Below are positions 958-41,500 of a stretch of 64,000 nucleotides of DNA, in pieces. The translations under genes and the position numbers were made by a program. The stretch's first letter is position 1. Every line of letters starts with the position of its first letter. The stretch is from contig NC_068346.1 of NCBI RefSeq assembly GCF_014633365.1, positions 13,847,030-13,911,029 on the forward strand. The letters run 5' to 3'. This stretch comes from Diospyros lotus (taxonomy: Eukaryota > Streptophyta > Magnoliopsida > Ericales > Ebenaceae). The notes beneath the pieces were generated by a model, which saw nothing but the letters and a program-made list of their open reading frames with translations, was not told where the DNA came from and ran no database searches.

Positions 958-1141
958 CTTCGCCTTGCACGAAGGTATCCTAATGAAACCCTAGACACTA
1001 ACAAAGACACACAGTAAACACCTACTAACCGTGACTTTTCAGAAAACCCTAGAGACTAAAAAATAGGATTAACCAGGCGACTAACAACCCTAGCCCGACT
1101 CTGAGTGGATTAGAAAATAATCAAGGACTCACACAGTGCGT
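958..1141 (-). other. Leader of the split copia element
   Basis: This is the untranslated leader between copia gag (starting at 957) and its primer-binding site, which now lies at 14968-14980. The gypsy element inserted into it. The last five bases, TGCGT at 1137-1141, are the target site repeated at 14952-14956. No coding content is seen. Confidence 0.85.
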
Positions 1142-3161
1142 TGATTAGTGGTTAATTTTGTAAAAATTTTGTTATAATTATACCCTTCTTTTGATCTTAA
1201 AAATGGCTTAAATTAGATATTAATATATATTTTATGGTTATATGCAACTTTAAATTGAAAGATGAATGAAATGAAGTTCTAAAGTAAATAATAATAATAT
1301 ATAACATTATATATAATACATATACATCATTATATGCATGCATGTAATATATATATATAATATAATCTAATATATATGTGTGCCATGTGTAATACATATA
1401 TATAATATATAATTTATTAATAACATTAAATTATTTTTTTTTAGGCATGAAGAATTCAAGCCCATGAAGATTTAAAGCCCATGAAGAATTTAAAGTCCAT
1501 GAAGAAATCAAACATATGAAGAAATCAAACCCATGAAGAAATCAAGCCCATGAAAAATTCAAGTCCATGAAGAATTAAAGCCCAATTTGAGCAACCCATG
1601 GAAGATATTATTTGGAGAAAGCCCAAGGATTATTTTTAATCCTAATGAAGATTAAAAAATCAATTTATAGAAATCTATTTTTATTTTTTATGTGAGAGCT
1701 TTATTAGGTGTGTTTTTTAGCTAAAATCCATTTAACTATTAGGTGGATATTTTAGCTAAAATCCATTTAACTTTATGAGTGCTTTATTAGGTATGTATTT
1801 TAGCTAAAATCCATTTAATATTAGGTGTGTATTATAGCTAAAATCCATTTAACTTTAAGTGTGTGAGTGCCCATTAGATATAATTATGTCTAATTGAATA
1901 ATTGAAATTGTGTGGTTTGTATTGCAACTTGTGGCCTATAAATAGCTCACTTGATTGCATTTGTAAGTGTGATTATTATTCTTGAATCAAAGTTTAGTTG
2001 TTTCCTTATAATTCTCTCTTTGAGAATTGTTCTTGTTCTTTCCCCTTTTCTTTAGTATTCTCTCTTGTGATCTTACTTCCTTCCTTTCTTCTTTTAAATT
2101 CTTATGTCATTTATTATTACTTTATTATTCACCGCCTAAATGGCCGGTTAATTTGTGCCTTTAAATTTCTGCAATTTTAATTCTTGTCATTTAATTATTC
2201 ACCGCCTAAATGGACGGTTAGTTTATGCCTTTAAATTTCTGTAATTTTAATTCTTGTCATTTAATTATCCACCGCCTAAATGGTCGGTTAGTTTATGCCT
2301 TTAAATTTCTTGTCATTTAAATTTTGTTATTTAAATTACGTCGTTTAAATTCATGTCAATTAACTTTTAAATGGAAATGAGTAGCTAAATCTAATCTTGG
2401 GTTAAGGCAAGGACAATGTCCAACGCCAATGATTCCCAAAGAAAGCTGCGCTTTAAATAAGTAACATTAATTTAAATTTCAGTATGAGTATATCTTAATT
2501 ATTGAGAAATCACTAGGTTTGGATTGGAGCGTAAGCCTAACTTAGAGCTTTCATGTCACGCATGAGAGTTACTAGAACTGGAAACGCTATCATACCCAAA
2601 CCCGGATGATTAATTTAGTTGTCTTGTATATTAATTGTAATTGGATTTATGGTAGTTGCTTAAATTAGAATCCCACATATCATGTATGGAGATTGCTTAA
2701 CCTAGAACTATCATCATCTCTAATTGCATTTAATAACAAACCCTCATATCTGAAATTAAATTAATGTTACTAATCTTTTATGCTAAAATTTGGGAATCAA
2801 CGGGTTGGCACTGAAATTGTCTTAACTTAAGTACTATCCAATTTTATATTCTCACTTAAAGTATTTATTTCAATTACTGCCTTAATTTATTTCCTAGTAT
2901 CTGCTGTTTGAAAAACCATAAAAAACCTTGTTGCCAATTTGTCCAAATGCGTGTGTGCTTGTGTGACATTCTTTTTATTTTGCCATAAATAAATCTCTCA
3001 GTGGACGACTTGGACTCATTCAGAAAATATAAATTTAAGTTTGGACTACAACTGCACTCGTACACTGACGAGTATAAACCTCTCACCTAAATAAAGAAAA
3101 AAATATAAAATTTTTATTGTGTTTTGTTTTGTGTTTTAATTGCAGGGTGGGAGTGCAGCCA
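1142..3161 (+). repeat. 5' LTR of the gypsy element
   Basis: A 2020-bp LTR starting TG and ending CA. Internal tandem structure: a CATGAAGAA-type unit at 1446-1590, a TTTAGCTAAAATCCATTTAA unit repeated four times at 1717-1850, and three copies of a roughly 70-bp unit beginning CACCGCCTAAATGG at 2130-2310. A TATA box lies at 1937-1945. The short ORFs inside the LTR occur in both copies but have no coding character. Confidence 0.95.
1937..1945 (+). promoter_or_regulatory. LTR TATA box
   Basis: TATAAATAG in the 5' LTR, repeated at 13727-13735 in the 3' LTR. It is well placed to start the genomic RNA within the LTR. Assignment rests on sequence only. Confidence 0.6.
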
Positions 3162-3166
3162 AATTT

Positions 3167-3184
3167 TGGCGCCGTTGCCGGGGA
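3167..3184 (+). other. Primer-binding site (tRNA-Asp type)
   Basis: TGGCGCCGTTGCCGGGGA, five bases after the LTR end. It matches the 3' end expected of plant tRNA-Asp, the primer usual for Athila-type elements. Confidence 0.85.
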
Positions 3185-3288
3185 GATTGAGGCAAAAACA
3201 AAAAGAAAAAAAAATATAAGAAGAAGCATCTCCTGATAAATTCGGTAACTCTGTTTCTTTTTACTTTATTTTTATTTGTGCATAGTGT

Positions 3289-4845
3289 ATGATACTTAGG
3301 TCAGGTAAAACTGTAGAAAATCAGTCACTCATGTCTCAACACAATGAGAACATGCCACTTCCACAGAACATGTCTGCACGTGGTAGTGACCACGGTGACC
3401 CTGATCCCATTGATCAGGAGATGATCAGACCCCTTAGGGAGTATCTTCATCCTCCTAGGCAGACAACCCCCTCATGCATTATTCTTCCCATCAATCATCA
3501 TAGGTTTAACTTCAAACCTGGCACAATCCAATTGTTGCCAACTTTTCATGGCATGGATTCTGAAAATCCATATACTCATATGAAAGAATTTGAGGAAGTA
3601 TGTAGCACTTGCATGGACCATACAACAAATGAGGATGTCATAAGATTAAAACTCTTTCCATTCTCACTGAAAGATAAGGCAAAAATATGGTTAAGCACTT
3701 TCCCACCTAGATCTATAGGAACTTGGAGAGAAATGCAAACAACTTTCTTAAAAAAATACTTCCCTGCCAACAGAACTGCTACTCTTCAAAGACAAATCAT
3801 GAACTTTGCCTGTAAACCAAATGAGAATTTTGCGCAAGCGTGGGAAAGGTTTAAAGACCTTCTTCACACTTGTCCGCACCATGCTTTTGAGCAATGGAGA
3901 GTGGTCAGTTTCTTTCATGATTCACTCACTCCCCAATTGAAAATGCTAGTTTCTACAATGTGCAATGGAGAATTCTATGAGAAGACTCCAGAAGAAGCTT
4001 TCCACTTCTTTGACACATTGGCTGAGAATACAAGGAACTGGGAAGTTGGTCCAACATTTGCTCTTGATTCAAGAGAAAATCCACAACCTAGAGGGAGATA
4101 CCAACTGAGTGAGAGTGACGATTTAAATGCAAGACTAACTGCTTTAACAAAGAAAGTTGAAAACATGCAACCCAAAAAGGTGCAATCTGTTAATCAAGTG
4201 GAAGTAAAGTGTGCTGTGTGTGATGCAACAGATCATTCAACTGAAGAATGTCCCACCCTACCTGCTTTCAAGGAGGTATTGTATGGGCAGATTAATAACA
4301 ATCATTCACACAACTTTGAGGGGAGACAAAATCAAAATCAGAGTGGAGTCTATTATGGGAATAATCAGAACTACAATTCATACCATCCCAATAATAGAAA
4401 TCACCCCAATTTTTCTTGGAGAAATGATTCTGGAAATCATTCTCAACCTCCCTTCCCTACACAACAACATACCTTCCAACAAAATCAAGGTTCTTCATCC
4501 AATACTTACCAACCTCCTCATAGGAGATCTTTGGAAGATACCTTGCACCAGTTCATCCAAAGTCAAACAGGTATCAACAATCAGGTTGCTCAGCTTGTCA
4601 AAAATCAAGACCAAACAAACAGAGCCATAGAAGACATTAGGAGCCAGTTGACCAAGATAACACAAACATTGAATGTGAGAGAACCTGGAAGGTTTCCATC
4701 CCAAACTAATCCTAACCCAATTAGGCAAACCAACCAGGTAGAAGCTTCAAATAGTGAAACCAACACTCATGAACAAGTGCAAGTAGTGACTGCCCTAAGA
4801 AGTGGAAGAATAATTGAGAAACCAACTGATCCTAGGATAAACTAA
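3289..4845 (+). CDS. Gypsy Gag (retrotransposon gag plus zinc knuckle)
   Basis: A 518-residue Gag starting at ATG 3289 (MILRSGK). Residues about 90-240 form the retrotransposon gag domain, with the hallmark stretch KDKAKIWLSTFPPRSIGTW and later AWERFKDLLHTCPHH. A CX2CX4HX4C zinc knuckle lies at residues 308-321 (CAVC, then H316 and C321). A Q/N-rich tail and an LRSGR motif follow near the end. It would form the virus-like particle and bind the element RNA. The TAA at 4843-4845 is in frame with the protease ORF that follows, so Gag ends exactly at the gag/protease border. That could be a termination codon that is sometimes read through, or simple decay. Confidence 0.88.
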   Translation: MILRSGKTVENQSLMSQHNENMPLPQNMSARGSDHGDPDPIDQEMIRPLREYLHPPRQTTPSCIILPINHHRFNFKPGTIQLLPTFHGMDSENPYTHMKEFEEVCSTCMDHTTNEDVIRLKLFPFSLKDKAKIWLSTFPPRSIGTWREMQTTFLKKYFPANRTATLQRQIMNFACKPNENFAQAWERFKDLLHTCPHHAFEQWRVVSFFHDSLTPQLKMLVSTMCNGEFYEKTPEEAFHFFDTLAENTRNWEVGPTFALDSRENPQPRGRYQLSESDDLNARLTALTKKVENMQPKKVQSVNQVEVKCAVCDATDHSTEECPTLPAFKEVLYGQINNNHSHNFEGRQNQNQSGVYYGNNQNYNSYHPNNRNHPNFSWRNDSGNHSQPPFPTQQHTFQQNQGSSSNTYQPPHRRSLEDTLHQFIQSQTGINNQVAQLVKNQDQTNRAIEDIRSQLTKITQTLNVREPGRFPSQTNPNPIRQTNQVEASNSETNTHEQVQVVTALRSGRIIEKPTDPRIN

Positions 4846-7800
4846 CATGTTGATGAAGAAAAAGAACCAAAAGATCATGAATCCACCGTGGAAAAAAATG
4901 AGAAAAATGAAAAAAATGAGAAAAATGAAAAACAAAAAGAAGATGAGAAAGAAATTCAATACAGGCCCAAACCACCTTTTCCACAAAGGTTGAATCATTT
5001 GAAAAAAGAGCAACAAAATGCAGATATATATGAAGTGTTTAAGCAAGTGAGAATCAACATCCCGCTGTTGGATGCAATCAAACAAACACCTTCATATGCA
5101 AAGTTTTTGAAAGATCTGTGCACTGTCAAAAGGAAAACAAATGTGCATGAAAAGGCATTCTTGACTGAACAAGTCAGCGCCATTCTCCAATTGAAAACTC
5201 CTCCCAAATATAAAGATCCAGGCTGTCCAACCATTACATGCATCATAGGAAGTCAAAAGGTTGATCGGGCACTCTTGGATTTAGGAGCTAGTGTCAATTT
5301 GTTGCCATACAGTGTGTATCAACAGTTGGGATTAGGTGAGCTTAAACCCACTAGAGTGACCCTTCAGCTGGCTGATCGATCAGTCAAAGTTCCACGAGGA
5401 ATTGTGGAGGATGTTCTGGTACAAATCGATAAGTTCTACTTTCCAGTGGACTTCATCGTTTTGGACACCCAGCCGCATCAGGGGCCTCAACCTCCTGTAC
5501 CAGTCATCTTAGGTCGACCATTCCTTGCCACATCAAATGCCATCATCAACTGTAGGAATGGTGTGTTAAAGGTATCTTTTGGGAACATGACTGTAGAAAT
5601 GAATATCTTCAGGGTAGCCAAACATCAGGACATTGAGAGTGAAGTGGAGGAGGTAGACTTGATCCAAACACTGACCAATGACTGTTTTGAAGAGTTCATG
5701 AGAAGACCCAAAGAAGGAAATCAAGATCTTGAAGAAATAAAAGAAGTGGAAGTCATAAGTAAAGAAAGTGAGAAGCCTACATGGATGCCTGGTTTAGAGC
5801 CATTAAAGAACTTAGACAGTAAGCTCATGGCTCCTGATAGCCATCAGTCCACGCCTGAGAGAAAGCCATTGCCCAGTGATTTGAAGTATGTCTTTCTAGG
5901 AGAAGGGGAAGCATTCCCAGTGGTGATCTCTTCAAGTTTGACACCTCAGCAAGAGCAACAACTGATAGAAGTTCTAAAAGCACACAGGAAGTCATTAGGA
6001 TGGACCATTTTAGATTTGCAAGGTATTAGCCCTTTGATCTGTACTCATAAGATATTCTTGGAAGAAGGAGCAAAACCAGTTAGGCAAATGCAAAGGAGAT
6101 TAAATCCCAACATGAAATAAGTTGTCAGAAAAGAAGTGCTTAAGCTATTGGATGCTGAAATAATTTACCCAATCTCTGATTCTAAGTGGGTAAGTCCAAC
6201 ACAGGTAGTACCCAAAAAGTCTGGAGTCACTGTTGTAAAAAATGAGAACAATGAACTGATTCCCACGCGCATCCAAACAGGATGGCGTATGTGCATTGAT
6301 TATAGAAAGCTCAATTCTGTGACAAGGAAAGATCATTTTCCTTTGCCTTTCTTGGATCAAGTTCTGGAGAGAATAGCAGACCAAGCCTACTATTGTTTCT
6401 TAGATGGCTACTCAGGGTACAATCAGATAGAAATTGCACTAGAAGATCAAGAGAAGACAACTTTCACATGTCCATTTGGGACATTTGCATACAGGCGCAT
6501 GCCATTTGGGTTATGCAATGCTCCAGCCACCTTTCAAAGGTGTATGATGAGCATTTTCAGTGAAATGGTTGAGCAGATTGTTGAAGTATTTATGGATGAC
6601 TTTTCTGTTTATGGAAGTAACTTTGAGGCCTGTTTGGAGAATCTGAAAAAGGTTTTAGCAAGATGTGAGGAAACAAATCTGATACTCAATTGGGAAAAAT
6701 GTCACTTCATGGTGAAACAGGGCATAGTCTTGGGGCACATCGTTTCATCTAGGGGGATGGAGGTAGACAGGTCAAAAATTGAAACAATTCAAAAACTCCC
6801 CATCCCTAGGAATGTGAAAGACATCAGAAGTTTTTTGGGACATGCAGGGTTTTATAGGAGATTCATTGCTTCCTTTAGCACCATAACAAGACCCTTGTGC
6901 CATTTGTTGTCTCAAGATGTTCCGTTTGAATGGAGTCCTGCCTGTCAAAATGCTTTTGATAAATTGAAAGATGCACTCATTTCAGCACCTATCATTCAGT
7001 CCCCTGATTGGTCCCTCCCGTTTAAACTTATGTGCGATGCTAGTGATTACGCGGTAGGAGCTGTGTTAGGGCAGAGGAAGGATAAGAAACCTCATGTGAT
7101 ATATTATGCTAGCAAAACTCTTAATGAGGCACAAAAGAATTACACCACTACAGAGAAAGAGTTACTAGCAGTTGTCTTTGCCCTGGACAAGTTTCGATCT
7201 TACCTTGTAGGGTCACTAGTGATCATTTTTACTGATCACGCTGCTCTGAAGTATTTGTTCACAAAGCAAGATGCAAAACCCCGTCTGCTCCGATGGATCT
7301 TACTCCTGCAAGAGTTCAACATTGAAATCAGAGACAAGAAGGGAGTAGAAAATGTGGTGGCTGACCATTTGTCAAGGATTCCAAGTCAAGATCTCACACA
7401 ATTTGATGAACCAATTCATGACAATTTCCCTGATGAGCAACTGTTTAAAGTGAATGTTATTCGTGCATCATCTGTTGTCCCTTGGTATGCCGACATTGCG
7501 AATTACCTGGCAACTGGTCTGATCCCAGACCATTGGAGTAAGCAAGATAGGCATAAATTCTTCAGAAAAGTCAGAACCTTCTTTTGGGATGAGCCCTACC
7601 TCTTCAAGTATTGTCCTGACCAAATCATCCATAGATGCATACCCGATCATGAGCAACAAAGTGTCATCAATTTCAGTCATACTCTTGCATGTGGAGGCCA
7701 TTTTTCTGTCAAGAAAACAGTTGCAACAATTTTTCAGAGTGGATTTTATTGGCCGACACTGTTCAAGGATGTGTACAAGTTATGTTCAAATTGCGATCGA

Positions 7801-8778
7801 TGTCAAAGGTTAGGAAGTCTGTCAAGGAGAAACATGATGCCATTACATCCGATCCAAGTGTTAGAAGTTTTTGACTGTTGGGGTATGGATTTTATGGGCC
7901 CATTTGTCAATTCATTTGGTCATGAATATATCTTACTTACTGTTGACTATGTGTCCAAATGGATAGAAGCAATCCCGGCCAGAACAAATGACCATAGGAC
8001 TGTCGTGAAATTTTTGAAAGAAAACATATTCAGTCGATTTGGGATGCCACGAGCAATCATCAGTGATGGGGGTTCCCATTTTTGTAATAAAGTTGTGGCA
8101 GGATTAATGAAGAAATATGGTGTACTGCATAAGGTTGCAACACCATACCATCCCCAAACCAATGGTCAAGCCGAGCTAGCCAATAGGGAGATTAAGCGCA
8201 TATTGGAAAAGACTGTTGCTGCTAATCGTAAGGATTGGTCCTTAAGACTAGTAGACGCTCTTTGGGCGTACAGGACAGCTTACAAAACAATTTTGGGAAT
8301 GTCTCCCTATAGGCTAGTATACGGTAAATCTTGTCATCTGCCGGTGGAAATTAAGCATAAAGCATATTGGGCAATTCATAAGATCAACAAGAGTCTAACT
8401 AAAGCAGACTTATCCAGGAAGCTCCAATTGAATGAACTTGAGGAAATTCGGAATGAAGCATTTGAAAATGCACGATTGGCCAAGGTTCGCATGAAAGAGT
8501 TACATGATCGGCACATCATTCGAAAAAGCTTTCAGGTAGGGCAACGGGTACTCTTGTATGATTCTCGATTGCATCTATTCCCAGGAAAATTGAAGTCTCG
8601 ATGGGTCGGCTCCTTTGTAATCAAGTCCATCTCAGGATATGGGGCATTTGAGATAAAAAATCCGGAGTCAGGATAGCTTCTAACAGTCAATGGTCATAGG
8701 TTGAAACCATACCAGGGTAGTGTTGAGGAGAATGAAGGAGTTGTGGATTTGGATGATCCATCATCATCTGATGAGTAG
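4846..8778 (+). pseudogene. Gypsy Pol: protease, RT, RNase H, integrase (two internal stops)
   Basis: Continues in the gag frame. A Lys/Glu-rich linker (4846-4990) leads to an aspartic protease with the active-site stretch LLDLGASVNLLP (about 5272-5307). Reverse transcriptase carries the catalytic FMDD (about 6590), and RNase H starts around 7030 ([15 protein letters not shown]) with TDHAALKYL near 7230. Integrase has an HHCC finger (CSNCDRC near 7800), DDE residues in [17 protein letters not shown] and [10 protein letters not shown], and a GPY/F-like C-terminus. A TAA at 6118-6120 replaces a codon expected to be Glu just before RT. A TAG at 8674-8676 truncates integrase 34 codons before the natural stop at 8776-8778. 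There is no frameshift, so these look like point mutations. Confidence 0.92.
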
Positions 8779-9433
8779 GGAAAGTTTCCTATCGTCTGGG
8801 AATCTGACGTTAAAAGACCACATTTCCATTTAGGTTAAATGGATGTTTATAGATCTGAAAAAAAAAATAATAAAAAAAAGAAAAAAATTAAATAAAAAAA
8901 AGAATAAAATAAAATAATAAAGAAGTATATATATAAGTTGTTCATTTTCTGCATTACTTAATTAACTTTGATTCAAATAGTGTTTCTCTGTGTGCAGTCT
9001 AAATAAAATTTTTTTGCATACGAGTTCATGCATTGAAGACCACCAAGTATGCCTATCTTCTATCCTTTTATTGTCGATTGAGGACAATGTGCAATTAAAG
9101 TTGGGGGGTAAGGTGTACTTGATTTTATTGGTGTTTGAAATTGATTCATTGTGCAAATAATTTTGTTAGACTCGATAATATTGTCTTGTGTGGTATGTAT
9201 GATTTTATTGGGCCCCTAAAAGATTTTATTGGGCCCCTAAAACAAAACATTTATTAAAAAAAAAAATCAAAAAAAATTAATTAATAATAATAATAAGAAT
9301 AAGAATAAAAAAAATTAAAACAAAAAAAACAATAAAATAATAATAAAAAAAATTGAATTGAGAGAGACAGAATTGACGCTGGTGGTAGCCATCTTTTCTT
9401 GGGCAGTGCAATCACACTGCCCTATAAAGAAAG
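8779..9433 (+). other. Post-integrase noncoding stretch with first PPT-like site
   Basis: A/T-rich with simple A runs (8860-8930, 9255-9350) and a doubled GATTTTATTGGGCCCCTAAA unit at 9201-9240. At 9094-9110 lies AAAGTTGGGGGGTAAGG, preceded by GAGGACAATG. This is the usual look of a gypsy polypurine tract, yet it is 3.8 kb away from the 3' LTR. No coding sequence is seen. Confidence 0.6.
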
Positions 9434-9676
9434 AAGGCACACTGCCAAATGTTGAAAACAGAGGCGCCGAGCGTTGAAAAAAAAAAAGGCACACTGCCAA
9501 ATGTTGAAAAATGAGACGCTAAACGACCTCAAGTCTGACGGTGCAATTATGGCATGCCTCGAGTCGAGTGTAGAATAGTGATGCCCATTGCTCTATAAGA
9601 GACTCCATATCTGTATGAGGCAAGTCACCCCTCTTGAGCTCAATCTTCTCTCCTTTGTGTTATTCTCCGATCAGGT
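9434..9676 (+). promoter_or_regulatory. Candidate internal promoter and leader for the cargo ORFs
   Basis: Two identical 25-bp direct repeats beginning AAGGCACACTGCC lie at 9434-9458 and 9486-9510. They are followed by a TATA-like CTATAAGAG at 9593-9601 and a CT-rich leader. A consensus 5' splice site, CAG|GTACTC, lies at 9672-9680. The arrangement of repeated upstream box, TATA and leader just before two ORFs suggests a promoter independent of the LTR. This is inference from layout only. Confidence 0.4.
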
Positions 9677-9745
9677 ACTCTCATCCCTTTTGTAAAGTTT
9701 ATAGTTCTTTACTTTCTTCTTAGTATAATTTTTTTTAAAAAAAAA

Positions 9746-10291
9746 ATGAATCTTTATCTCTCAAAAATTCACAAGTACTATCCATCTCTCCCGCAGAATG
9801 ATTTGAAAAAAATTTATGCTGCTAGGTGTGAAAGACTTTGGCTGTTGATGCGTAATAACATCCCTGAAGATATTCGTTGGCTAATCGAAGCAAAAGTTCG
9901 ATTAGCTGGTGAAACTTCACATAGTTTTAAGCATTTTCCAGGCTTAGGGAAGAGTAGTTTTGCGAAGAAAAGAAGAGCGAAAAGAGTGAATGGTTGTTAC
10001 AAATGTGCTCGATGGACCTGTAACACACGATGCAAATCTGTGGGGTTTACGTCCATAAATCGAGAAGATAAAATTAGTTTCATAAAGGATGGACTGAGTA
10101 AGGAGTCTTTGGATGATATCCGATTGACTCTTGAGACGCATCTATGTGGAATAGTGCAAAGAGAACTTCTTGCTTTATGGACCCAGTTCAGAAGTGACCA
10201 CCAACGCTATAGTCTTGGGAATCTGACTAAAAACGACCCTGTTTGCCAATCTATAAGAAAATTGGATGGGAAGCTTATCCCCGCTTCATAG
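9746..10291 (+). CDS. Cysteine-rich basic protein resembling carlavirus nucleic-acid-binding proteins
   Basis: A 181-residue intact ORF that does not belong to the standard gypsy set. Residues 68-100 hold a Gly-Lys-Ser lead-in, a basic cluster KKRRAKR (74-80) and four cysteines spaced CX2CX4CX3C (84, 87, 92, 96). The pattern and the residues after it (a short Gly/Ile stretch and an F-I-x2-G) resemble the cysteine-rich nucleic-acid-binding proteins of carlaviruses and relatives (Pfam Carla_C4), which act as silencing suppressors or gene regulators. The N-terminal 65 residues and the tail are unfamiliar. It starts at an ATG after a run of A, and nothing upstream in frame offers a better start. 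It lies 167 bp before the LOG-like ORF. Viral origin is inference; a plant zinc-binding protein is the alternative. Confidence 0.6.
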   Translation: MNLYLSKIHKYYPSLPQNDLKKIYAARCERLWLLMRNNIPEDIRWLIEAKVRLAGETSHSFKHFPGLGKSSFAKKRRAKRVNGCYKCARWTCNTRCKSVGFTSINREDKISFIKDGLSKESLDDIRLTLETHLCGIVQRELLALWTQFRSDHQRYSLGNLTKNDPVCQSIRKLDGKLIPAS

Positions 10292-10458
10292 AAAGTGTTT
10301 AAGCCGTTTCTGGACGTAAAACCAGAGGAAGATGTGAGCCACAATCACAACTACTTATACATACGCATGATTTTTGTTTGTATTTATTTCTTGTTGAATT
10401 GTTGTATAGCTACTTTTGATCGCCAAACTTCTTTTCAGGACATACAAAAGGAACAAAC

Positions 10459-11058
10459 ATGGAAGGCCAGTTAGTTCGTCGAATCAATACCATATGTGTA
10501 CTTTGTGGCTCTCAACTTGGGAGCGATATTTGTTACGCACTTGCAGCGAGCGAACTTGGTAAAAAATTAGGAGAGAAAAAAATTAATTTGGTATATGGAG
10601 GGGGAAGTCGTGGATTGAATGGTTATGTTTCACAAGCTGTACATCTTGGAAATTCATCTGTGGTAGGTATAATGCCAATCCCTTTAGCTGAACCACATAT
10701 TTTCGGGATTACACGCGGTCAACTTATAGAAACGACTTCTATGTCTGAGCGCATGGCTTGTAAGATTTATCAGTCAGATGCCTTCATTGTTTTACCAGGA
10801 GGTTTTGGAACACTTGAAGAAATCTTTTGTATAATCTCTTGGGCCAAGAGTAATCTCCATACCAAACCCATTGGACTTTTAAATGTTAACCATTTTTTCG
10901 ATGGGTTACTCTCTTTTCTTGATCAGGCTGTGGACCAACAGTTTATTTCTCGTTCAGCAAGAAAGATTCTCATTTCTGCATCCACCATTGATAAGCTGCT
11001 AGAGAAATTACATGCTTATGTTCCACAGTACGATCCTCATGAGCCTCGGATAGACTAG
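10459..11058 (+). CDS. LOG-like: LONELY GUY-like cytokinin riboside 5'-monophosphate phosphoribohydrolase carried by the retrotransposon
   Basis: A 199-residue intact ORF with the Rossmann-type LOG fold. Visible are ICVLCGSQLG near the N-terminus (12-21), the nucleotide-binding GGGSRGLNG (47-55) and the family signature PGGFGTLEE (113-121). The Arg and Glu known to be catalytic in LOG enzymes correspond to R98 and E121. The Lys after that Arg is Met here, and a nearby Glu is Cys. GLLNV and the C-terminal helices also match. Plant LOGs are about 200-220 residues and release active cytokinin base from its nucleotide in the cytosol. Host LOG genes have several introns, but this copy has none, suggesting capture through RNA. 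A 3' splice site, TTTTCAG, ends at 10438, 20 bp before the ATG. Activity is unproven. Confidence 0.88.
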   Translation: MEGQLVRRINTICVLCGSQLGSDICYALAASELGKKLGEKKINLVYGGGSRGLNGYVSQAVHLGNSSVVGIMPIPLAEPHIFGITRGQLIETTSMSERMACKIYQSDAFIVLPGGFGTLEEIFCIISWAKSNLHTKPIGLLNVNHFFDGLLSFLDQAVDQQFISRSARKILISASTIDKLLEKLHAYVPQYDPHEPRID

Positions 11059-11133
11059 TCTAAGGCAATTAGTAACAAGCGCCAAAGAGGTCCGATTAAT
11101 TTAGATTTATCACTGTGAGAAATGCTCTTTATT

Positions 11134-11311
11134 AAGATGGCTGAGTAAGGAGTACTTTTTGTACTCTTGAGACGCATCTAGTTATTGTACAACTTGCAGG
11201 ATTTTTCTTGGTTGTGTTCTTAAAAAAAAAAAAAAAACTGTGGAATATTGTTAGCAAAGTCTTTGATAAGATGGCTGAGTAAGGAGTACTTTTTGTACTC
11301 TTGAGACGCAT
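11134..11311 (+). repeat. 44-bp direct repeats with hairpin, derived from the cysteine-rich ORF
   Basis: Two identical 44-bp copies at 11134-11177 and 11268-11311 contain the inverted repeat AGTAC-TTTTT-GTACT. A third, diverged copy lies inside the cysteine-rich ORF at 10094-10143 (CTGAGTAAGGAGT, then CTTGAGACGCATCT). Similarity extends a little beyond the unit on both sides, so the downstream copies look like shortened duplicates of that coding segment. A run of 16 A at 11222-11237 separates them. Confidence 0.75.
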
Positions 11312-12944
11312 TTTGCTTATCTTATGACTTGCATGAAATTTTTATTTTGGTGTGAAAATATAAATATATATATATGGTGTGCTCATTTGTTGTTTAAGTT
11401 TTAGCAGTTCACAGCAAATCTATGGACTTGTGGAGTTACAGGTATTACTAACAACCCTGATTTATTACTGCAATTCAAGTTGGGGGGTGTAAGGTCTAGT
11501 CATGAATCATCTGGTTTATATTTAACTGTGAGTTTGTAATTACTAGTTTGTAGTCTTGTGGGAATTGATTATCTTTATCTGCTCTTATAAAAAAAAAATT
11601 ATTATGTGTTTTAAATAATGCTATTCCTAAAGCTTTAAAGTTATGCACTGATAGCCGGTTAAGTTTGCAATACGAAACATGAATGCATTGATTTCTCATT
11701 TGAAAACGTTTATGCATGAGAATAAGTAATTTACATTCATCAGGGATTCAAAATTTAGAAATTGGTTATCGGTCATAAAGTCAAAGGTAACAATAATTAG
11801 CTGATTAGTACACTGTATGATCCCTCAACAGAAGTGGAGACTATTACCCAAGTGAGTGTTTGAGCCTAATAACCGTTAATTCTAAGTGAAATAACACTTA
11901 CTCTAAATATGCTTCATTGTTTATCTTATCTTTTCAATGGCTTCAAAACATCAATTTGCTTTGAATGTCTAGTATGATAGCGGATAAGTTTAACTAGTTT
12001 CAAACTCTGAATTAGATGACTGAGTAACATCGTTTTGTAGAAGTATGATAGAGGAATCAATTTCTTTCATTTTGGGCTTACTAACTTTTTTTTCTTTCTT
12101 TACATTAATCTCATTTGCTATCCCATTTGAGCCATTTGTAGTACAATTTCTTTCATTACCCTCGTTTAACCCATAACCATATGAATTTTATCCAACCTGG
12201 TGTGATTTTGGGAATTAGTCTGTTTATCTATTTTCATATTTAAAAAGAAAAAGAAAAAAAAAGGAAAAAAAAGAGAAAAAAAAAGAAGAAAAAAAAAGTG
12301 AAAAAAATGGGGCAAATTCTCTTAGTTATTCAGGATAACTATTTCAAAATGAATGCTAAAAAAAAAAAAAAATCCCGACACACCCTTTGCACACTCTACC
12401 TTTTCTTTGACAACCCGTATTAACCTTATAGCCCCATTACAACCCAGTCTGGTCCCTTTTGATGCTATAAATCATGTGATCTCAGAATTCGAGTTTGGAG
12501 TAGGGAATCATGTTTAAATTCAGAAGTTACTCATCTAGAGCATTATTCCAATCATGAAGCTATGTCAATTTCCTTGTTCTTTCATGAAAATACATTCCTT
12601 GTATTTGGGATGGCACCGAGTTTTGAATTTATTCTGCATTTACCCTTATAACGGTGCACCTCCTTGTGTGTACACTTGAGGAATCCTTTTTATTGGAGAG
12701 AAAATCTATAGTAAGATTTGAAGTCAAAACTTCGAGGGAGTAAGTCTGTGTGTTGGTTATCCTAATTTTCATTCCTGAGATTGTATGACCTTTAACCAAA
12801 AATCTGATTTAGAATGCTAAATTATTTATTTAATCTTATGCATTTCGGTTTCGAATTTGAAATTTTTACATTCATACAGTTATTAAAGCTTGGCATGTGT
12901 ATAGTCTGATTGCTAAGGGACTAGCAATGTTTAAGTTGGGGGTA
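11312..12944 (+). other. Gypsy 3' noncoding region with second and true polypurine tracts
   Basis: No ORF of substance. A second PPT-like block (TTCAAGTTGGGGGGTGTAAGG) begins at 11474 and closely resembles the one at 9094-9110. The true PPT, TTAAGTTGGGGGTA at 12931-12944, abuts the 3' LTR. A-rich tracts occur at 12241-12310 and 12358-12373. The stretch just before the 3' LTR (GCTAAGGGACTAGCAATG) is typical of gypsy 3' ends. Confidence 0.7.
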
Positions 12945-14951
12945 TGATTAGTGGTTAATTTTGTAAAAAATTTGTTATAATTATACCCTTCTTTTGATCT
13001 TAAAAATGGCTTAAATTAGATATTAATATATATTTTATGGTTATATGCAACTTTAAATTGAAGGATGAATGAAATGAAGTTCTAAAGTAAATAATAATAA
13101 TATATAAAATTATATATAATACATATACATCATTATATGCATGCATGTAATATATATATATATATAATATAATCTAATATATATGTGTGCCATGTTTAAT
13201 ACATATATATAATATATAATTTATTAATAACATTAAATTATTTTTTTTTAGGCATGAAGAATTCAAGCCCATGAAGAATTTAAAGTCCATGAAGAAATCA
13301 AACCCATAAAGAAATCAAGCCCATGAAAAATTAAAGTCCATGAAGAATTCAAACTCATGAAGAATTAAAGCCCAATTTGAGCAACCCATGGAAGATATTA
13401 TTTGGAGAAAGCCCAAGGATTATTTTTAATCCTAATGAAGATTAAAAAATCAATTTATAGAAATCTATTTTTATTTTTTATGTGAGAGCTTTATTAGGTG
13501 TGTTTTTTAGCTAAAATCCATTTAACTATTAGGTGGATATTTTAGCTAAAATCCATTTAACTTTATGAGTGCTTTATTAGGTATGTATTTTAGCTAAAAT
13601 CCATTTAATATTAGGTGTGTATTATAGCTAAAATCCATTTAACTTTAAGTGTGTGAGTGCCCATTAGATATAATTATGTCTAATTGAATAATTGAAATTG
13701 TGTGGTTTGTATTGCAACTTGTGGCCTATAAATAGCTCACTTGATTGCATTTGTAAGTGTGATTATTATTCTTGAATCAAAGTTTAGTTGTTTCCTTATA
13801 ATTCTCTCTTTGAGAATTGTTCTTGTTCTTTCCCCTTTTCTTTAGTATTCTCTCTTGTGATCTTACTTCATTCCTTTCTTCTTTTAAATTCTTATGTCAT
13901 TTATTATTACTTTATTATTCACCGCCTAAATGGTCGGTTAATTTGTGCCTTTAAATTTCTGCAATTTTAATTCTTGTCATTTAATTATTCACCGCCTAAA
14001 TGGACGGTTAGTTTATGCCTTTAAATTTCTGCAATTTTAATTCTTGTCATTTAATTATCCACCGCCTAAATGGCCGGTTAGTTTATGCCTTTAAATTTCT
14101 TGTCATTTAAATTTTGTTATTTAAATTATGTCGTTTAAATTCATGTCAATTAACTTTTAAATGGAAATGAGTAGCTAAATCTAATCTTGGGTTAAGGCAA
14201 GGACAGTGTCCAACGCCAATGATTCCCAAAGAAAGCTGCGCTTTAAATAAGTAACATTAATTTAAATTTTAGTATGAGTGTATCTTAATTATTGAGAAAT
14301 CACTAGGTTTGGATTGGAGCGTAAGCCTAACTTAGAGCTTTCATGTCACGCATGAGAGTTACTAGAACTGGAAACGCTATCATACCCAAACCCGGATGAT
14401 TAATTTAGTTGTCTTGTATATTAATTGTAATTGGATTTATGGTAGTTGCTTAAATTAGAATCCCACATATCATGTATGGGGATTGCTTAACCTAGAACTA
14501 TCATCATCTCTAATTGCATTTAATAACAAACCCTCATATCTGAAATTAAATTAATGTTGCTAATCTTTTATGCTAAAATTTGGGAATCAACGGGTTGGCA
14601 CTGAAATTGTCTTAACTCAAGTACTATCCAATTTTATATTCTCACTTAAAGTATTTATTTCAATTACTGCCTTAATTTATTTCCTAGTATCTGCTGTTTG
14701 AAAAACCATAAAAAACCTTGTTGCCAATTTGTCCAAATGCGTGTGTGCTTGTGTGACATTCTTTTTATTTTGCCATAAATAAATCTCTCAGTGGACGATC
14801 TGGACTCATTCAGAAAATATAAATTTAAGTTTGGACTACAACTGCACTCGTACACTGACGAGTATAAACCTCTCACCTAAATAAAGAAAAAAATATAAAA
14901 CTTTTATTGTGTTTTGTTTTGTGTTTTAATTGCAGGGTGGGAGTGCAGCCA
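12945..14951 (+). repeat. 3' LTR of the gypsy element
   Basis: 2007 bp, nearly identical to 1142-3161. Visible differences are scattered substitutions, a 4-bp change in the AT repeat near 13150 and a rearranged CATGAAGAA tandem block at 13253-13375. It ends at GCAGCCA and is followed by the target duplication TGCGT (14952-14956). Confidence 0.95.
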
Positions 14952-14967
14952 TGCGTATCAAAGAAAT

Positions 14968-29875: not shown

Positions 29876-31191
29876 TCAATTAGAACTCTCCTGAACTATA
29901 AGCTGCTGCCCACAAGATGCTGTAACATTCCCCCTCAATGAGAACTCGTCTGAACTGCCACCCTTGTGCACTGGAGAAAATTTTAAGCCAAGTTTATTAC
30001 ACAAAAACTGAAAACGAGCCTGAGAGAGCCCTTTTGTAAAAACATCAGCAATCTGGTGTTCTGTAGGAACATATCTGATCTCTATTTCATCCTTTTCAAC
30101 TTTTTCTCGAATGAAATGAATATCAAGCTCTATATGCTTAGTTCTCCCATGAAAAACTGGATTTTCAGCCATACTCTTAGCAGCCAAATTGTCAGTCCAC
30201 ACAATAGGTTTAGAAGGAATAGAATCTAAAAATCCCAGCTCAGAAAATAAGGACTTCAGCCATAATAATTCTGTTACACCTTGAGCAATGGCACAGTATT
30301 CAGCCTCACTAACTGATCAAGCAACCACTGTTTGTTTTCTAGAATCCCAAACAATCATATTACAACCAAGAAAGGCAAAAAACCACTGGTGGAGCGCCTT
30401 GTAACCTTACACCCTTCATGATCTGCATCGGTGTATACTGAAAGAGCTAAACTACCAAGTGAGGGAGAGAAGAAAAGACCATAACCCACCATGCCTTTCA
30501 AATATCTAAGCATCCGTTTACAAGCAACCCAATGCTGGACTTTAGGAGATGCCAAAAACTGATTTAATCTATTCACCACAAAGGCAATATATGGCCGAGT
30601 GAATGTCAAGTATTGAAGAGAGCTAATTAGAGTTCGATACAAAGATGGATTAGAAAATAGTTCACCTTCATTTGTAAGAGAAAATGCAGAAGTTGCAGGA
30701 GTTGCACAAGGCTTACAGTCATACATATCAGCTTTCTTCAACAAATCCATGGTGTACTTGGTTTGGGTTAAGTAAATTCCATCTGAATTTCGAAAAGCTT
30801 CAAACCCTAAGAAGTAATTGACTGAACCTAGTGTTTTTAAGGAAAAAGTGCTGTCCAAATCTCTAATACAAAGCTGAAGAGCAGCAGAATCTGATCCAGT
30901 TATCAGAATATCATTAACATAAACCAAAGCAAATAAAACATAAGAGGCAGTCCGTTTAATAAAGAGAGAAGCATCAAAAGTAGCTCTTGTGAAACCCCAA
31001 TTCTGAAATGCAGATTTCAACTTTACATACCAAGCACGAGGTGCTTGTTTTAAACCATAGAGGGATTTCTTTAATTTGCAAACATGAGAGGGTTATCTAG
31101 AATTCACAAAACCCTCAGGTCGAATCATGTAAACAATCTCTTCCAAGTCTCCATTTAGAAAAGCATTATTAATATCAACTTGTTGTATATC
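29876..31191 (-). pseudogene. Copia RT C-terminal half and RNase H
   Basis: Resumes the RT exactly where the gypsy inserted: [18 protein letters not shown], then KKSLYGLKQAPRAW near 31060, followed by the catalytic region YVNDILITG (normally YVDD, so one Asp is Asn). Next come the DLLKKADM and SLQYLTFTRP blocks and YTDADHEGC of RNase H. A stop after GFVNSR near 31095 and further breaks near 30350-30210 interrupt the frame. RNase H ends with MWTDNLAAKSMAENPVFHGR (from 30202) and KHIELDIHFIRE. Confidence 0.88.
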
Positions 31192-33948: not shown

Positions 33949-36900
33949 CAGTGTTCGAAAATTCGGCCTAGGCGCCACCTAGGCGCTGAGCGGCAACCGA
34001 CCGCAGCGATTTAGGGCTACTCGGTAGCCCTATGCGCCATGGCCGACTAATCGGTCCGCGACGCCGCCTAGGCGGACCAGGCGACGCCTAACCGCCTGGG
34101 CGGCCGCCTGGGTCGCGCACAACTTGGGCCACCTAGATCGTGCGCGTCTTGGGCCAACCTTTTTTCCCCCTCCCTTTCTCTATTTTCCGATCCCCTTTCC
34201 CTTTCTCTCTCTGGTTGTGTTCATCGCGGCTCCTCTCTCTCTCTCTCGCCTTCGATCTCCTCTTGGTTGTTCACCACCACCATTGATCTCTTCTCTTGGG
34301 CTTGCTCTCTCGTTGCTGCCGACCTCACCTGTTGCCTGTTGATCGTTCTCTCTCGTCGCCGTTCGCGTCTTGCTACGATATGTATCCAACCATCCATCTT
34401 CCTCCGCCAACGCAAGCTTGCATTTCTGCAGCAACTCAGCAGCAAGCAGCAACGCAAAGCTGCTCGTGGCTCACTTGCGTATTGCTTGCTTGCTGCTTCA
34501 ACAAGCAGCAAGCTTGCTGTGTCAGCTTACTGCTTCAAGCAGCAGCTGATTTCATTTCATTAGATGAGTTTTAATTAAATTTTAATGTATATTATTGAAA
34601 TTATTCAATACTCAGGGAAAAACAAGAGTCAGGAAGTGAAATGAATGATTCAGATAGGACTGGAAGTACGGGAGCATCGTCCGAGGCCTCCTCAATTCTT
34701 AAAAGGAAGTCAAATGATGTCGGATGGGAGTATGGAATGTTAATTGATCCGAAAAATATGGATAAAATTAAATGTAAGTTGTGTGGTAAAATTATGTCTG
34801 GAGGTGTTTACAGAGTAAAAGAACACATTGGCCACATTTCTGGAAATGTTTCTGCATGTCCAAAATCTTCTCCAATTGATCAAGCCAAATGTAAGAATGC
34901 TATTGCCGAGGCAAAGAATAAGAGGAAAAATAAGAAGGAGGAGGAAGATTTGATGAGATCAACTGTTAATATCTCCGAAAGAGTGGAAGGGGATGATGAA
35001 GATGAATTGCAAGAGTTAGGTAGCAGAAAAACATCCCGTACTCTTGGCCCTATCGATAAGTTTGCAAGCTCTATCAGCCCTGAAACTTGTTTGAGTGCGA
35101 GAATGAGCCAAAGGCAACAAACTATTAGTGAAGCACTATTTAAGAGAGAACACAGTCTGTTCGTGAATATTGTGCTAGATGGGTGTATGAAGCTGGTATA
35201 CCTTTCAATGCGATTGACAATGATAGTTTCAAATTGTTTGTTGATGCGGTTGGTCAATTTGGGCCGGGCTTCAAACCTCCCAGTCAATACCAATTGAAGG
35301 AACCACTATTAAAGGGGGAAGTTGACAGAATAAAAGAGTTATTGAAGAAGCATGAAGAAGAGTGGGCACGAATTGGGTGCTCCATTATGACAGATGCTTG
35401 GACAGATAGAAAAAGGAGGAGCATCATGAACCTATGTGTTAATTCTAATGCAGGTACTGCTTTCCTTTCTTCTAGAGAGTCTTCAGATGAAGCACATACA
35501 AGTGAACTTATCTTTGAGTATGTGGATAAATGCATTGAGCAAGTTGGGCCACAAAACGTCATCCAAGTAGTAACCGACAATGCTGCCAATAATATGGGAG
35601 CGGCAAAATTATTGAAGGTGAAGAGGCCAAATATCTTTTGGACCTCATGTGCTACTCACACCATCAATTTGATACTTGAAAGTATTGGAAAACTACCGAA
35701 GTATAAGAAAGTCATTGATCAGGCCAAGAGTTTCACAATCTTCATTTATGCACACCATAAGACCTTGTCCTTAATGAGGTCATTTACGAAGAAGAGGGAT
35801 ATAGTGAGACCAGGAGTCACTAGATTCGCTTCTACTTTCTTGACTTTACAGAGTTTAATGGAGAAAAAAGCCCAACTGAGGGCAATGTTTACCAGCTCTG
35901 AATGGGAGGAGTGCAAATGGTCAAAGATTGTTAAAGGGAAAGCAGCCTATGCTACTGTGATGAGCATTGCTTTTTGGAATGGTGTGACTGTATGCCTTAA
36001 AGTTTTTGCACCTTTGGTGAAGGTGCTTCGAATTGTTAATACGGATAGAATGCCTTCTATAGGCTTTTTATGTGGAGAGATTAAGCAAGCAAAGGAAGAT
36101 ATTAAGGAGGTCTTAAATAATCTTGAAAAGAACTATAAGCCTATTATGGAGATTATTGAAGCAAGGGTAAAAGATAGGCTAGATAGTCCACTACATTTTG
36201 CAGCTTACCTTTTGAATCCCTACTACTTTTTCAAGGATATGGATATACAACTTGATAATGAAGTGATGGATGGGCTTTTTAACTGTGTGGAGATGTTTTA
36301 TCATTATGATGGTGAATTGCAAGGCCATGTTATAAATGTTGAGTTGCCAAAGTATACTCGTAAAGATGGAGCTTTTGGAAAATCGTGAGCAACTCAAGGG
36401 TGTGCGAAAAATGATGACAATTATAATCCAGGTATAAAATTCTTTTAATCCTTTCTATTGTGTATTAGTGTATAAATTAAATTTGTTTACTTTATACTTG
36501 TTTGACCTATGTAGTTACATGGTGGATGACTTATGGAAATCAAACTCCAAACTTGCAACGAATGGCGAGAAAGATTCTCTTGTTAACCACTAGTTCATCC
36601 GGTTGTGAAAGAAATTGGAGCACTTTTGAAGGAGTTAGTGTATATATGAATTATATTTATTTACTATCAATTAGTTATCCTTATTCAGTTATCATTTATA
36701 TTGATATTGCTTTTATTTTATTTATGTAGATACATACGAAGAAAAGAAATAGACTAGACGTGAATCGATTGAACAATCTAGTCTATGTTCAATTTAATGC
36801 GAAATTGATGAACAAGCACAAAAGGGAGAAGGAAAGGAATGTTGATGTGCTACTTGCTAGTGATGCTAGTAATGCACAATGATGGATCGTTGATGGAGAA

Positions 36901-38513: not shown

Positions 38514-41500
38514 CCAACCAAAGAAGGCAACTAGGGAAAACAATACTCTGATTGTGGGAGCCATTACAACAGAGCTAAAGGTCTCAGCAAAATCCACACC
38601 AGGTGTTTGTAGAAAACCCTTAGCAACCAGCCTTCCTTTATACTTAAGAACAGAACCATCTGACTTACATTTGACCCTAAAAACCCATTTACTGCCAATG
38701 ATGTTCATATCTTCTGAAAAGGGAACTAGATCCCAAGTTTTATTTCTCTGCAATGCTGCAAATTCTTCTTGCATGGCCTGCAACCATCAAGAATCTAGCA
38801 AAGCCTCATGAATTGAATAAGGTTCTAGGCAACTCACTAAGGCATGAGGGGAGGTAGTAACAAATCTTTGAGTTTTAGAGCGGGTCATCATAGGATGTAT
38901 AGAAGGAGCAGCAGATGGTTTGGATTTGGGAAGTGAAATCAGCTGAATAGAGGGAACAAATGATTGTTCACAAGGAGAAGTGATAGCAGGAGAAGGTACT
39001 GAAGCTGGCGGACAAATCACTGAGTTTGACAAGGAAGGAGATAAGACAGGTGCTACTTTAGACAATTTGGAATAGGAAGGAAGAGACTGAAAATGAGAAG
39101 TAGATAACCCAACATTTGTAGTAGATGATGAAAAAGAAGGAGAAACAAATAGTGAGGGATAGGGAAAATCATTAGGATTAAAATGAACATGCCTTGATAC
39201 ATAGATCCTTTCGGATGGATGCAAACATTTATACCCCGCTTGAGAATGACTATATCCTAGAAACACATATTTGGATGTATGAAAAGTAAATTTGTGCTTG
39301 TTATAGGGTCTAAGAAAAGGAAAGCAAGCACAACCAAAAGGCTGGAGAAGCAAATAGTTGGGAGGTTTCTTAAACAACAACTGAAATGGACTAGAAAATT
39401 TAATAGGTGATGCTGGCAACAAATTTATGACATGAACTGCAATTTGAAAAGCTTCTACCCAATACTTAAGGGGCATATGAGAATGAGCTAATAGAGTTAA
39501 CCCCATTTCAACGATATGTCGATGTTTTCTCTCAGCCACACCATTTTGTTGATGTGTGTAAGGACATGAAAACCGAGCTTGAATACCAAAGCTTCTAAGA
39601 TAAGGCAAAAAGGCCTTAAACTCTCCCCCATTGTCAGTTTGTAAAGCTTTGAATTTGTGGTGATATTGCAGTTCAACAAATTTATGAAAAGTTATAAAAG
39701 TGAGTAGAGCATCTGATTTGAGTTTCAAATGATATAGCCAAGTATATCGGGTATATGCATCCACAAAGATGATATAATATCTATAACCCTCAATGGAAAG
39801 AATAGGGGAAGGCCCCCATAAATCGGAATAGACAAGTTCTAAAGGTTTAGTTGCTTTAATCTCAGAATGATTAAATGGCAGCTGTCTTAATTTCCCAAGC
39901 TTGCAAAAATCACAAAAAGGAATAGAAGAAAAAGGAACTTGAATTTTATTCAATATAAGCTGCAATACACGAGTGGATGGATGCCCCAAACGAGCATGCC
40001 ATTGTTTACAAACACCAGAACTAGTGTGAACAACATTGAAACAATGATTCGGCAACTCATGACAGAATAAATGCTTATTACATGTATTGTTGTACTGTTT
40101 ATTACATGGAGAAAAAGAAGTAGTTTGAACAGAATTAACAGGCTCAATAGAATGAACAGAGGGACTGATTGCAGCTAGAACAAAAGCTGAATTCAGTTGA
40201 TAGAGTCCATTCCTAAGATGGCCTTGAAGTAGCACCTGTTTGGAATCCTTGTCCTTGACAACACATGAATGAGAATCAAATTCAGTAACAACATTATTAT
40301 CTCGAGTTAATTGAGAAACACTAATCAAAATTTTCTTTATGTGAGGAACATGAAGAACATGAGGTAAAGAAACAAAAGATTTAGGAGAAAAGACAGAGGA
40401 AAGTCGTGTAGCACCAATAGCTGAGATAGGTAAAGACTTACCATTACCAATTGTAACTTTGCCACTGCCATGCTAGGGTGAATGATTGCATAGATTATGA
40501 ACATTGGAGGTAATGTGGTTTGTGGCACCAGAATCCACAAACCATGCAAGATCAGACTGATCATAAGGCAAGAATGAAGGTTCAGATGGTTGAGGGATAG
40601 TGCCATGAGCATTGCCATGATATGAACCTAAATCAGTCATGTAGCCTTTGCTAGAGTCCCGAACAGAAGCTAGGTATGCTTGAGAATCACGAGAATTAGT
40701 CTGACCACCTAAATTTCCTCTTCCAAAATTAGCACCAGAATTCCACTAAAAATTCTTATCAAATCTGTGGTAGCACTTATCCACAAAATGACTTGGTTTG
40801 CCACAAAACTAACAATAAATTATTTTGCCATTCAATCTACCTCTCCCTCTACCTCCTCGATTATTATAACCTCCTCTAGTATTCATAACAGATCCATTTC
40901 CATTTCCATTTTGTGCTGAATAAGAAGCAACATTAACAGACATTGAAGATGACATAGGTGAATCAAAAGCAGTTGTCAAATGTGGCACATTCTGTGTGAC
41001 TAACCGTTGTTCATGCATTAATAGAAGATATTGCACCTTTTCTAAATCAATTTCATCCATCTGGTATGTTATAAGACTAACAACAGTCTCATAGTCATGA
41101 TCTAATCCATTTTAAAATAGCTAATAATAGCTCCTTATCAGGAAGAGGTTCTCCTATGGCTGCAAGAGCATGGCCAATCGTTTTAATCTTTAAAATGTAG
41201 TCATTAACAGAGAGAGACTCCTTCTTAACTGAACATAATTGTTGCTTTAATTGAAAAGATTTTGCAACAATTTGTCTAAAATAAAGTTTCTCCAAGGTAG
41301 ACCATACCTCACCAGATGATTCACAATGAATCACCTGCGCCAGGACATCTTTATTAATGGTCGAGAAAAGCCAGCCAAGAAGAAGCTGGTTTGACCGCAG
41401 CCAATCCATATAGTCATCATTCAATTTCGTAGCTTCAGCATCACCACTGTCTGGATCCATAATAAACTTTGGAGGAGGTATTGAATTGTTTAGAAATTGA

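Follow-up and report, generated by a model that had tools for sequence, protein, structure and literature searches.

The question raised by this locus is why an LTR retrotransposon of Diospyros lotus should carry, in the position where related elements may have an env ORF, a LOG-like gene beside a gene of viral type, and whether the two genes serve the element or have merely been picked up by it. The structure of the element, the recurrence of the two genes in other copies, the selection acting on them and the features of the encoded proteins were considered together.

An Athila-type element with two genes in its env position

The element is 13.8 kb long and spans positions 1142-14951 of the window, the stretch of 64,000 nucleotides of D. 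lotus DNA analysed here (Table 1). The hallmarks of Athila found in it are two LTRs, a target site duplication and a primer binding site, which we take to be of the tRNA-Asp type. Pfam searches recognised gag, protease, reverse transcriptase (RT), RNase H and integrase, with the pol domains in the order RVT_1, RNase H (to residue 394), H2C2 (from residue 502) and rve, and reported no second RNase H stretch in the 108 residues between RNase H and H2C2. An additional RNase H domain separates Tat from Athila, which has none (PMC6317226, in the section available), and the element fits Athila rather than Tat because no second RNase H lies between its RNase H and its integrase. The original prediction of an Athila/Tat-type element with a LOG gene and a carlavirus-type ORF in the env position is borne out, the type being that of Athila. 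The three stops that had been read in gag-pol are also present, together with a six-codon gap relative to an intact relative. Elsewhere in the window, copia-type gag/pol pieces, a BED-finger/hAT-like transposase and a small-heat-shock-like ORF were noticed by eye (minus strand, 187-957, 30355-31020 and 38787-40328; plus strand, 34641-36388 and 60375-60923).

Table 1 Features of the Athila-type element, numbered from the first nucleotide of the window; family 1 is the family of the window element and family 2 the second D. lotus family.
Feature	Positions	Strand	Basis or remark
Left target site duplication TGCGT, 5 bp	1137..1141	.	Same 5 bases at 14952-14956
5' LTR	1142..3161	+	blastn against 3' LTR, 97.5% over 2024 columns; TG...CA ends
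Primer binding site TGGCGCCGTTGCCGGGGA	3167..3184	+	Sequence read directly
gag-pol frame with three in-frame stops (ORFs 3289-4845, 4888-6120, 6136-8676)	3289..8778	+	
TATA-box-like GCTCTATAAGAG, candidate internal promoter of the cassette	9590..9601	+	Conserved in both families
Candidate splice donor CAG/GTACTC	9675..9676	+	21/21 family-1, 2/2 family-2 copies
Candidate splice acceptor TTCTTAG before NABP	9717..9723	+	21/21 family-1, 0/2 family-2 copies
NABP, viral nucleic-acid-binding / carlavirus cysteine-rich type, 181 aa	9746..10291	+	Pfam Viral_NABP, Carla_C4
Untranslated block after NABP	10292..10360	+	98% identical between the two D. lotus families at 10300-10359
Candidate splice acceptor CTTTTCAG before LOG	10431..10438	+	20/21 family-1 copies (not L017)
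LOG-like cytokinin riboside 5'-monophosphate phosphoribohydrolase ORF, 199 aa here	10459..11058	+	Domain matches
Lost LOG tail SKAISNKRQRGPINLDLSL, basic stretch and LxLxL (EAR-like), behind the stop	11056..11118	+	
Polypurine tract region TTTAAGTTGGGGGTA	12930..12944	+	Read in sequence
3' LTR	12945..14951	+	blastn, 97.5% identity to 5' LTR
Right target site duplication TGCGT, 5 bp	14952..14956	.	Copy of the left one

Identity of the NABP and LOG ORFs

The first ORF, NABP, carries a KKRRAKR stretch plus CX2CX4CX3C and exceeds the curated cut-offs of both Pfam Viral_NABP (2.9e-9, 37.6 bits, cut-off 23) and Carla_C4 (3.5e-5, 24.1 bits, cut-off 20.9). Its supposed relationship to carlavirus-type proteins is thereby upheld, including by the Carla_C4 comparison that had been proposed as a check. 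Viral_NABP matches 56 and Carla_C4 55 of 60 aligned NABP proteins at E<=0.01, these 60 being the window's own and 59 of the best 120 of 493 relatives. In IMG/VR, a collection that may be poor in plant RNA viruses, a search for a viral genome with both LOG and NABP gave no relative (queries A2 and P0011).

The second ORF passes the cut-offs of Lysine_decarbox (8.1e-33) and TIGR00730 (145 bits vs 96), and its closest relative of solved structure is Arabidopsis At2g37210. Against the NCBIfam equivalog CtkRMPhLog it scores 89 bits with a cut-off of 300, a shortfall of little weight in a comparison that had no ordinary plant LOG for calibration. Two open, intact ORFs had been expected here. Both lie where they were placed and NABP is open, but the LOG ORF is cut by a TAG at codon 200 and so is without the last 20 residues of the 219-aa protein usual in the family; an intact LOG in this copy was accordingly rejected. 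Among the 150 LOG places scored in the genome, open frames are mostly of 231-232 residues, and a frame of 212 residues occurs in four, the window's included; another of these four (L025) likewise has a 199-aa LOG ORF.

Recurrence of the pair in copies with and without pol

Searches of the 630-Mb D. lotus genome gave 1121 first-look candidates for LOG, 991 for NABP and 1095 for the 3' noncoding DNA, figures that are not to be equated with confirmed copy counts. The best 150 were scored for each ORF, with identities of 96-100% over the whole query for LOG and of 95-100% for NABP, and 40 were scored for the noncoding DNA. With about 1,000 first-look candidates per ORF and 150 scored for each at 95-100% identity, the pair is not confined to one copy. 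The search for further copies, as had been suggested, found it throughout the window's family and also in a second D. lotus family (L053, L054), where both ORFs are intact, stand in the same order and show 85-88% protein identity. Transduction into a single copy was rejected by this family-wide recurrence of LOG and NABP, and with the purifying selection between families (see below) the pair goes well beyond what chance would give.

Among 20 hand-picked copies, the 219-aa LOG is found in 18 and the 181-aa NABP in 15. Because the 150 best scorers are biased to intact copies, copies were also picked by noncoding DNA instead. This gave 39 other places, and among the top 20 of them by rank the 219-aa LOG was present in 10, the 181-aa NABP in 6, both in 4 and neither in 1. 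In L021, L033, L034, L042 and L045 the NABP frame is open but TTG, ATA, AAG or AGG stands in place of the ATG, and the replaced start codon sits at the end of an A/T homopolymer.

Seven of the hand-picked copies have gag-pol, four of them as a single ORF of 1832-1835 aa. The remaining 13 are of a pol-less type, which gave no match to protease, RT or integrase and yet keeps the pair, in the arrangement upstream LTR, NABP, LOG and 3' noncoding region; the suggestion that copies without pol carry the cargo is thus confirmed. A stretch 64-65% identical to part of gag is present in 11 of these 13 and lies within an ORF of 409-419 aa in five. In one of them (L015, ORF 4781-6028, 415 aa), the ORF shares 42% identity over 217 aa with the C-terminal half of gag and has no Pfam match. 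The window element itself is a mosaic, being nearer to full-length copies at 9160-9309 (mean 0.96 vs 0.81) and nearer to pol-less copies at 9310-9759 (means 0.96-0.99 vs 0.85-0.94).

In each of two pol-less copies (L022, L023) another LOG lies one unit upstream, and the two arrays concerned, where seen, consist of pol-less units. Tandem LOG copies with a step of about 7.2-7.5 kb were observed at C11:16479278-16494585, C14:18448121-18470966 and C10:29875637-29883534. Two noncoding stretches of the window, 11136-11179 and 11270-11312, like GATGGCTGAGTAAGGAGTAC...CTCTTGAGACGCAT, resemble by eye a coding piece of NABP at about 10086-10149, and look as if parts of NABP had been duplicated downstream of LOG.

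Relatives in other plants

LOG relatives number 2041 at E<=0.001, and those named among the best 120 come from Diospyros, Populus, Xanthoceras, Rehmannia, Orobanche, Primulina, Reevesia, Diplodiscus and Parasponia; a Taxus LOG (P0094), also among the best 120, was counted as ordinary. For NABP, the named relatives among the best 120 of 493 are from Populus, Orobanche, Xanthoceras, Acer and Rhamnella, and Populus, Orobanche and Xanthoceras are thus common to the relatives listed for both proteins. The genera with LOG or NABP relatives span several eudicot orders. Three Orobanche gene models (P0159, P0184, P0218) fuse NABP and LOG domains, which fits neighbouring genes on one strand. Equal-sized contigs in the LOG and NABP lists (8723, 4511, 2128) are compatible with pairing, although not proof of it; pairing by the equal-sized contigs 873, 905 and 734 was dropped, these being too short for both ORFs in full.

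LOGs are here called transposon-type by kinship to the D. lotus copies, most of the relatives carrying no genomic context, and the ordinary LOGs compared with them were gathered with LOG1/3/8-like queries. A tree built quickly from 75 proteins places 43 of 46 transposon-type LOGs in one clade (SH-aLRT 98), and 26 ordinary LOGs form a clade of their own on a branch of 0.89 with support 100. The tree that had been proposed to set these proteins against plant LOGs separates the 43, but three (P0025, P0032, P0060) fall outside, beyond the branch of that clade, where they share an unresolved fork with the 26 ordinary LOGs and with three proteins of Xanthoceras.

Selection on NABP and LOG

Within the window's family, NG86 dN/dS is 0.23 for LOG and 0.55 for NABP (21 copies each); from 8 copies each, gag gives 0.31 and the RT-integrase part 0.37. 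Codon likelihood gave for LOG an omega of 0.54 (2dlnL 15.8; 38 of 43 copies, gap-free alignment), with 0.34 in the 13 pol-less copies (2dlnL 10.2). For NABP it gave about 0.95 (2dlnL 0.11; 41 of 43 copies), with 1.03 in the 13 pol-less copies, and most NABP change within the window's family looks neutral. Between the two D. lotus families, purifying selection on both genes is shown by an omega of 0.284 for NABP (2dlnL 27.4) and 0.277 for LOG (2dlnL 32.2), each from six copies compared with two. Both genes are thus constrained over the longer term, since the between-family omega is about 0.28. The dN/dS check that had been put forward accordingly gives values below 1 for both genes between families, and selection on the cargo, as predicted, is found for both genes at that level and for LOG within the family, but not for NABP within the family.

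Active site and C-terminal tail of transposon-type LOGs

The catalytic Arg is retained in 113 of 117 transposon-type LOGs and the two Glu of PGGxGTLEE in 113 and 115, the catalytic roles of these residues being presumed here; the columns of GGGSxGLMG are kept in 100-117 of the 117. The Arg and the glutamates are present in the window copy as well, in agreement with the prediction that its catalytic core is kept. A comparison of 117 ordinary LOGs shows 122 nearly invariant columns, and at 26 of these the same residue stands in <10% of the transposon-type LOGs: the Lys after the catalytic Arg is kept in 9%, the Tyr of PGGYGT in 1%, and L127 is replaced by F in 117/117. The replaced Lys103, Tyr120 and Leu127 (numbered on P0244) are close in sequence to catalytic residues. 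As host-invariant positions are changed in transposon-type LOGs, their activity may be altered or lost; catalysis by these proteins is plausible from their sequences, with unchanged specificity not assured.

The 219-aa LOG of the family ends in LDLSL, a tail that the window copy is without and that was matched in 35 of 40 other D. lotus copies, with no match in five. A strict LxLxL <=4 residues from the C-terminus was counted in 85 of 117 transposon-type LOGs vs 0 of 120 proteins of the comparison set, and a basic cluster in the last 24 residues in 105 of 117 vs 2 of 120, a set taken as a fair comparison because the tail pattern was noticed first and then counted on the same proteins, many of which are near relatives (Populus above all). 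The 117 are what is left of 119 transposon-type LOGs after two of <190 aa were dropped; the Xanthoceras proteins P0242, P0243 and P0246, which in the tree stand beside transposon-type LOGs, were treated as ordinary in the tail count and omitted from the active-site count. Examples of the tail are KKRRLDLTLRL, LRLDLSLSL and RGPINLDLSL, and the strict LxLxL end is missing in 32 of 117, Orobanche and Xanthoceras ones among them.

The EAR consensus is given as LxLxL or DLNxxP (PMC6479872, in an excerpt); it is found in the 219-aa family protein and is absent from the window copy. The effector HaRxL21 recruits TOPLESS (TPL) through a C-terminal EAR motif, which by itself is not enough for the TPL interaction according to a section heading of the same paper (PMC7446885, available in part). 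The basic and EAR-like tail, overlooked in the original prediction, suggests a role in the nucleus and in transcription more than one in cytokinin alone. A LOG ending in a basic stretch and LxLxL may also be a simple signature by which transposon LOGs can be distinguished from ordinary ones of plants.

Candidate expression signals

The TATA-like box upstream of NABP reads CTCTATAAGAGA in 21/21 family-1 copies and CCTATAAGAGA in 2/2 family-2 copies. The acceptor-like TTCTTAG before NABP is doubtful, because the intron would measure only about 48 bases; the acceptor-like site before LOG is CTTTCAG in 2/2 family-2 copies. In the untranslated block after NABP, positions 10300-10359 have the identity given in Table 1 while the synonymous distance between the families is 0.21-0.37. 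A hairpin is predicted at 10307-10328 (UUUCUGG-ACGUAAAA-CCAGAGG) with a GT in its loop, and the block is possibly a splice-control or protein-binding element. From these signals we infer that the cassette is expressed from an internal promoter and spliced.

Comparison with known elements and proteins

Two Athila-like elements similar to LOGL4 were reportedly described by Steinbauerova et al. in 2011. That work is cited on LOG/YgdH-bearing elements by Alvarado-Marchena et al. 2022 (PMC9289625), who, in the available part of the text, give a YgdH/LOG domain in LTR elements of two Citrus species, and of Populus trichocarpa when the five-consensus filter is left out. The original prediction knew of no described LTR element lineage with LOG cargo, and its claim to novelty on this point fails. 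The Citrus and Populus elements likewise have a LOG-type extra domain in plant Ty3/gypsy elements, whereas a viral-type partner, an EAR tail, a selection test, pol-less carriers and a wide distribution go unmentioned in that part of the account (PMC9289625). AlkB-bearing Ty3/gypsy elements of Phalaenopsis likewise add an enzyme ORF to an LTR element, but the enzyme is an RNA demethylase, the elements are 25 kb long and, in that survey as far as the text was available, they occur only in Phalaenopsis (PMC9289625). LOG cargo was thus already known, and what is new here is the basic and LxLxL tail of transposon-type LOGs; in the open-access literature searched, which takes in few subscription papers, there was no report of an NABP partner or of an EAR tail in retrotransposons.

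The Athilas of Marco and Marin 2008 (PMC2410132) are the same type of element, with ORFs in the env position, and the accessible part of that study describes pol-less Arabidopsis copies with conserved gag/env ORFs, purifying selection and recombination between families. The D. lotus element differs in that its env position holds NABP and LOG. Plant LOGs and transposon-type LOGs have fold family and catalytic motifs in common, and the latter differ in their separate clade, their basic and LxLxL tail and the changed residues beside the catalytic ones. The carlavirus protein p12 of chrysanthemum virus B, which we assume to belong to Pfam Carla_C4, has this type of match in common with the transposon NABP, a protein of putative function that differs in having 181 aa and a conserved C-terminal part beyond the matched domain. 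In the part of the source available, p12 is a nuclear transcriptional activator and a silencing suppressor (PMC7588395).

A possible role of the cassette in the host cell

NABP and LOG may form a conserved accessory cassette of an Athila-type lineage, kept for helping the element in the host cell, a proposal that we rate as standing an even chance of being right. The cassette would be transcribed from its own TATA promoter and then spliced to give NABP or LOG. By analogy with the carlavirus protein, NABP would act as a silencing suppressor and/or nuclear regulator; LOG would enter the nucleus and recruit TOPLESS-type corepressors via its EAR-like tail, and would probably still release active cytokinin. 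Together they might leave the element harder for the cell to silence, or keep the cell dividing. We infer each of these steps, from the use of the promoter and the splicing to the localisation, the binding of TOPLESS, the release of cytokinin and the suppression of silencing. The pol-less copies need outside pol and yet carry the cassette, which suggests that its expression benefits the individual copy or cell lineage; retention alone is no proof of host manipulation, since Athilas that lack pol but conserve gag/env ORFs have been described (PMC2410132, in part).

In its fullest form, the proposal is that of a widespread eudicot retrotransposon with a host-reprogramming operon, an internal spliced promoter unit for a virus-type suppressor/regulator and a nuclear, cytokinin-activating and TOPLESS-recruiting LOG, kept in pol-less copies as well because it opens meristematic cells to transposition. 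We offer this form tentatively and would sooner doubt it than rely on it.

A role inside the element is unlikely but deserves serious attention. NABP would then be an RNA chaperone or packaging factor, consistent with its KKRRAKR stretch and four spaced cysteines, and LOG would be structural or serve nucleotide salvage, its hydrophobic-basic tail binding Gag/RNA. The Gag-derived ORF that pol-less copies can keep (5/13, 409-419 aa) suits this role, as do the gag and env ORFs kept by Arabidopsis pol-less Athilas (PMC2410132, in part), but the tail conforms to the EAR consensus LxLxL and LOG keeps its active-site motifs, neither of which has an obvious use in packaging.

It is rather improbable that cytokinin accounts for everything, as in the original prediction, with LOG raising active cytokinin, NABP driving proliferation and the tail incidental. 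In favour of this account, 113-115 of 117 proteins keep the catalytic Arg and both glutamates of PGGxGTLEE; the tail, on the other hand, is a distinctive feature common to transposon-type LOGs, and several residues invariant in ordinary LOGs are replaced. These losses near the catalytic residues (host-invariant Lys103, Tyr120 and Leu127) and the EAR-like tail would suit a LOG that has no catalytic function and is a scaffold for offering EAR tails to TOPLESS, with cytokinin playing no part. This we find more improbable still, as the catalytic Arg/Glu are retained almost throughout, together with most of GGGSxGLMG, which would be unexpected in a dead scaffold. Finally, the two genes might be mere passengers, one from a LOG transcript of the host and one from a virus, captured by chance and still present only through the youth of the copies. 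This would accord with known gene transduction by LTR elements (PMC7264820, in part) and with the NABP omega of about 0.95 within the window's family, but is very improbable, being largely contradicted already by the between-family omega of 0.28 for both genes, by the clade of 43/46 sampled transposon-type LOGs (SH-aLRT 98, quick tree) and by the pair kept in pol-less copies.

If the proposed host-directed role is true, some plant retrotransposons encode effectors that alter hormone signalling and host transcription, as pathogens do, and such retrotransposons are not merely targets of silencing. The old question of the purpose of the Athila env-position ORF would also become testable.

In the annotation of Diospyros and Populus, some transposon-type LOGs (P0001, P0028, P0033) bear the name of an ordinary gene (LOGL10), and such naming may inflate LOG family counts.
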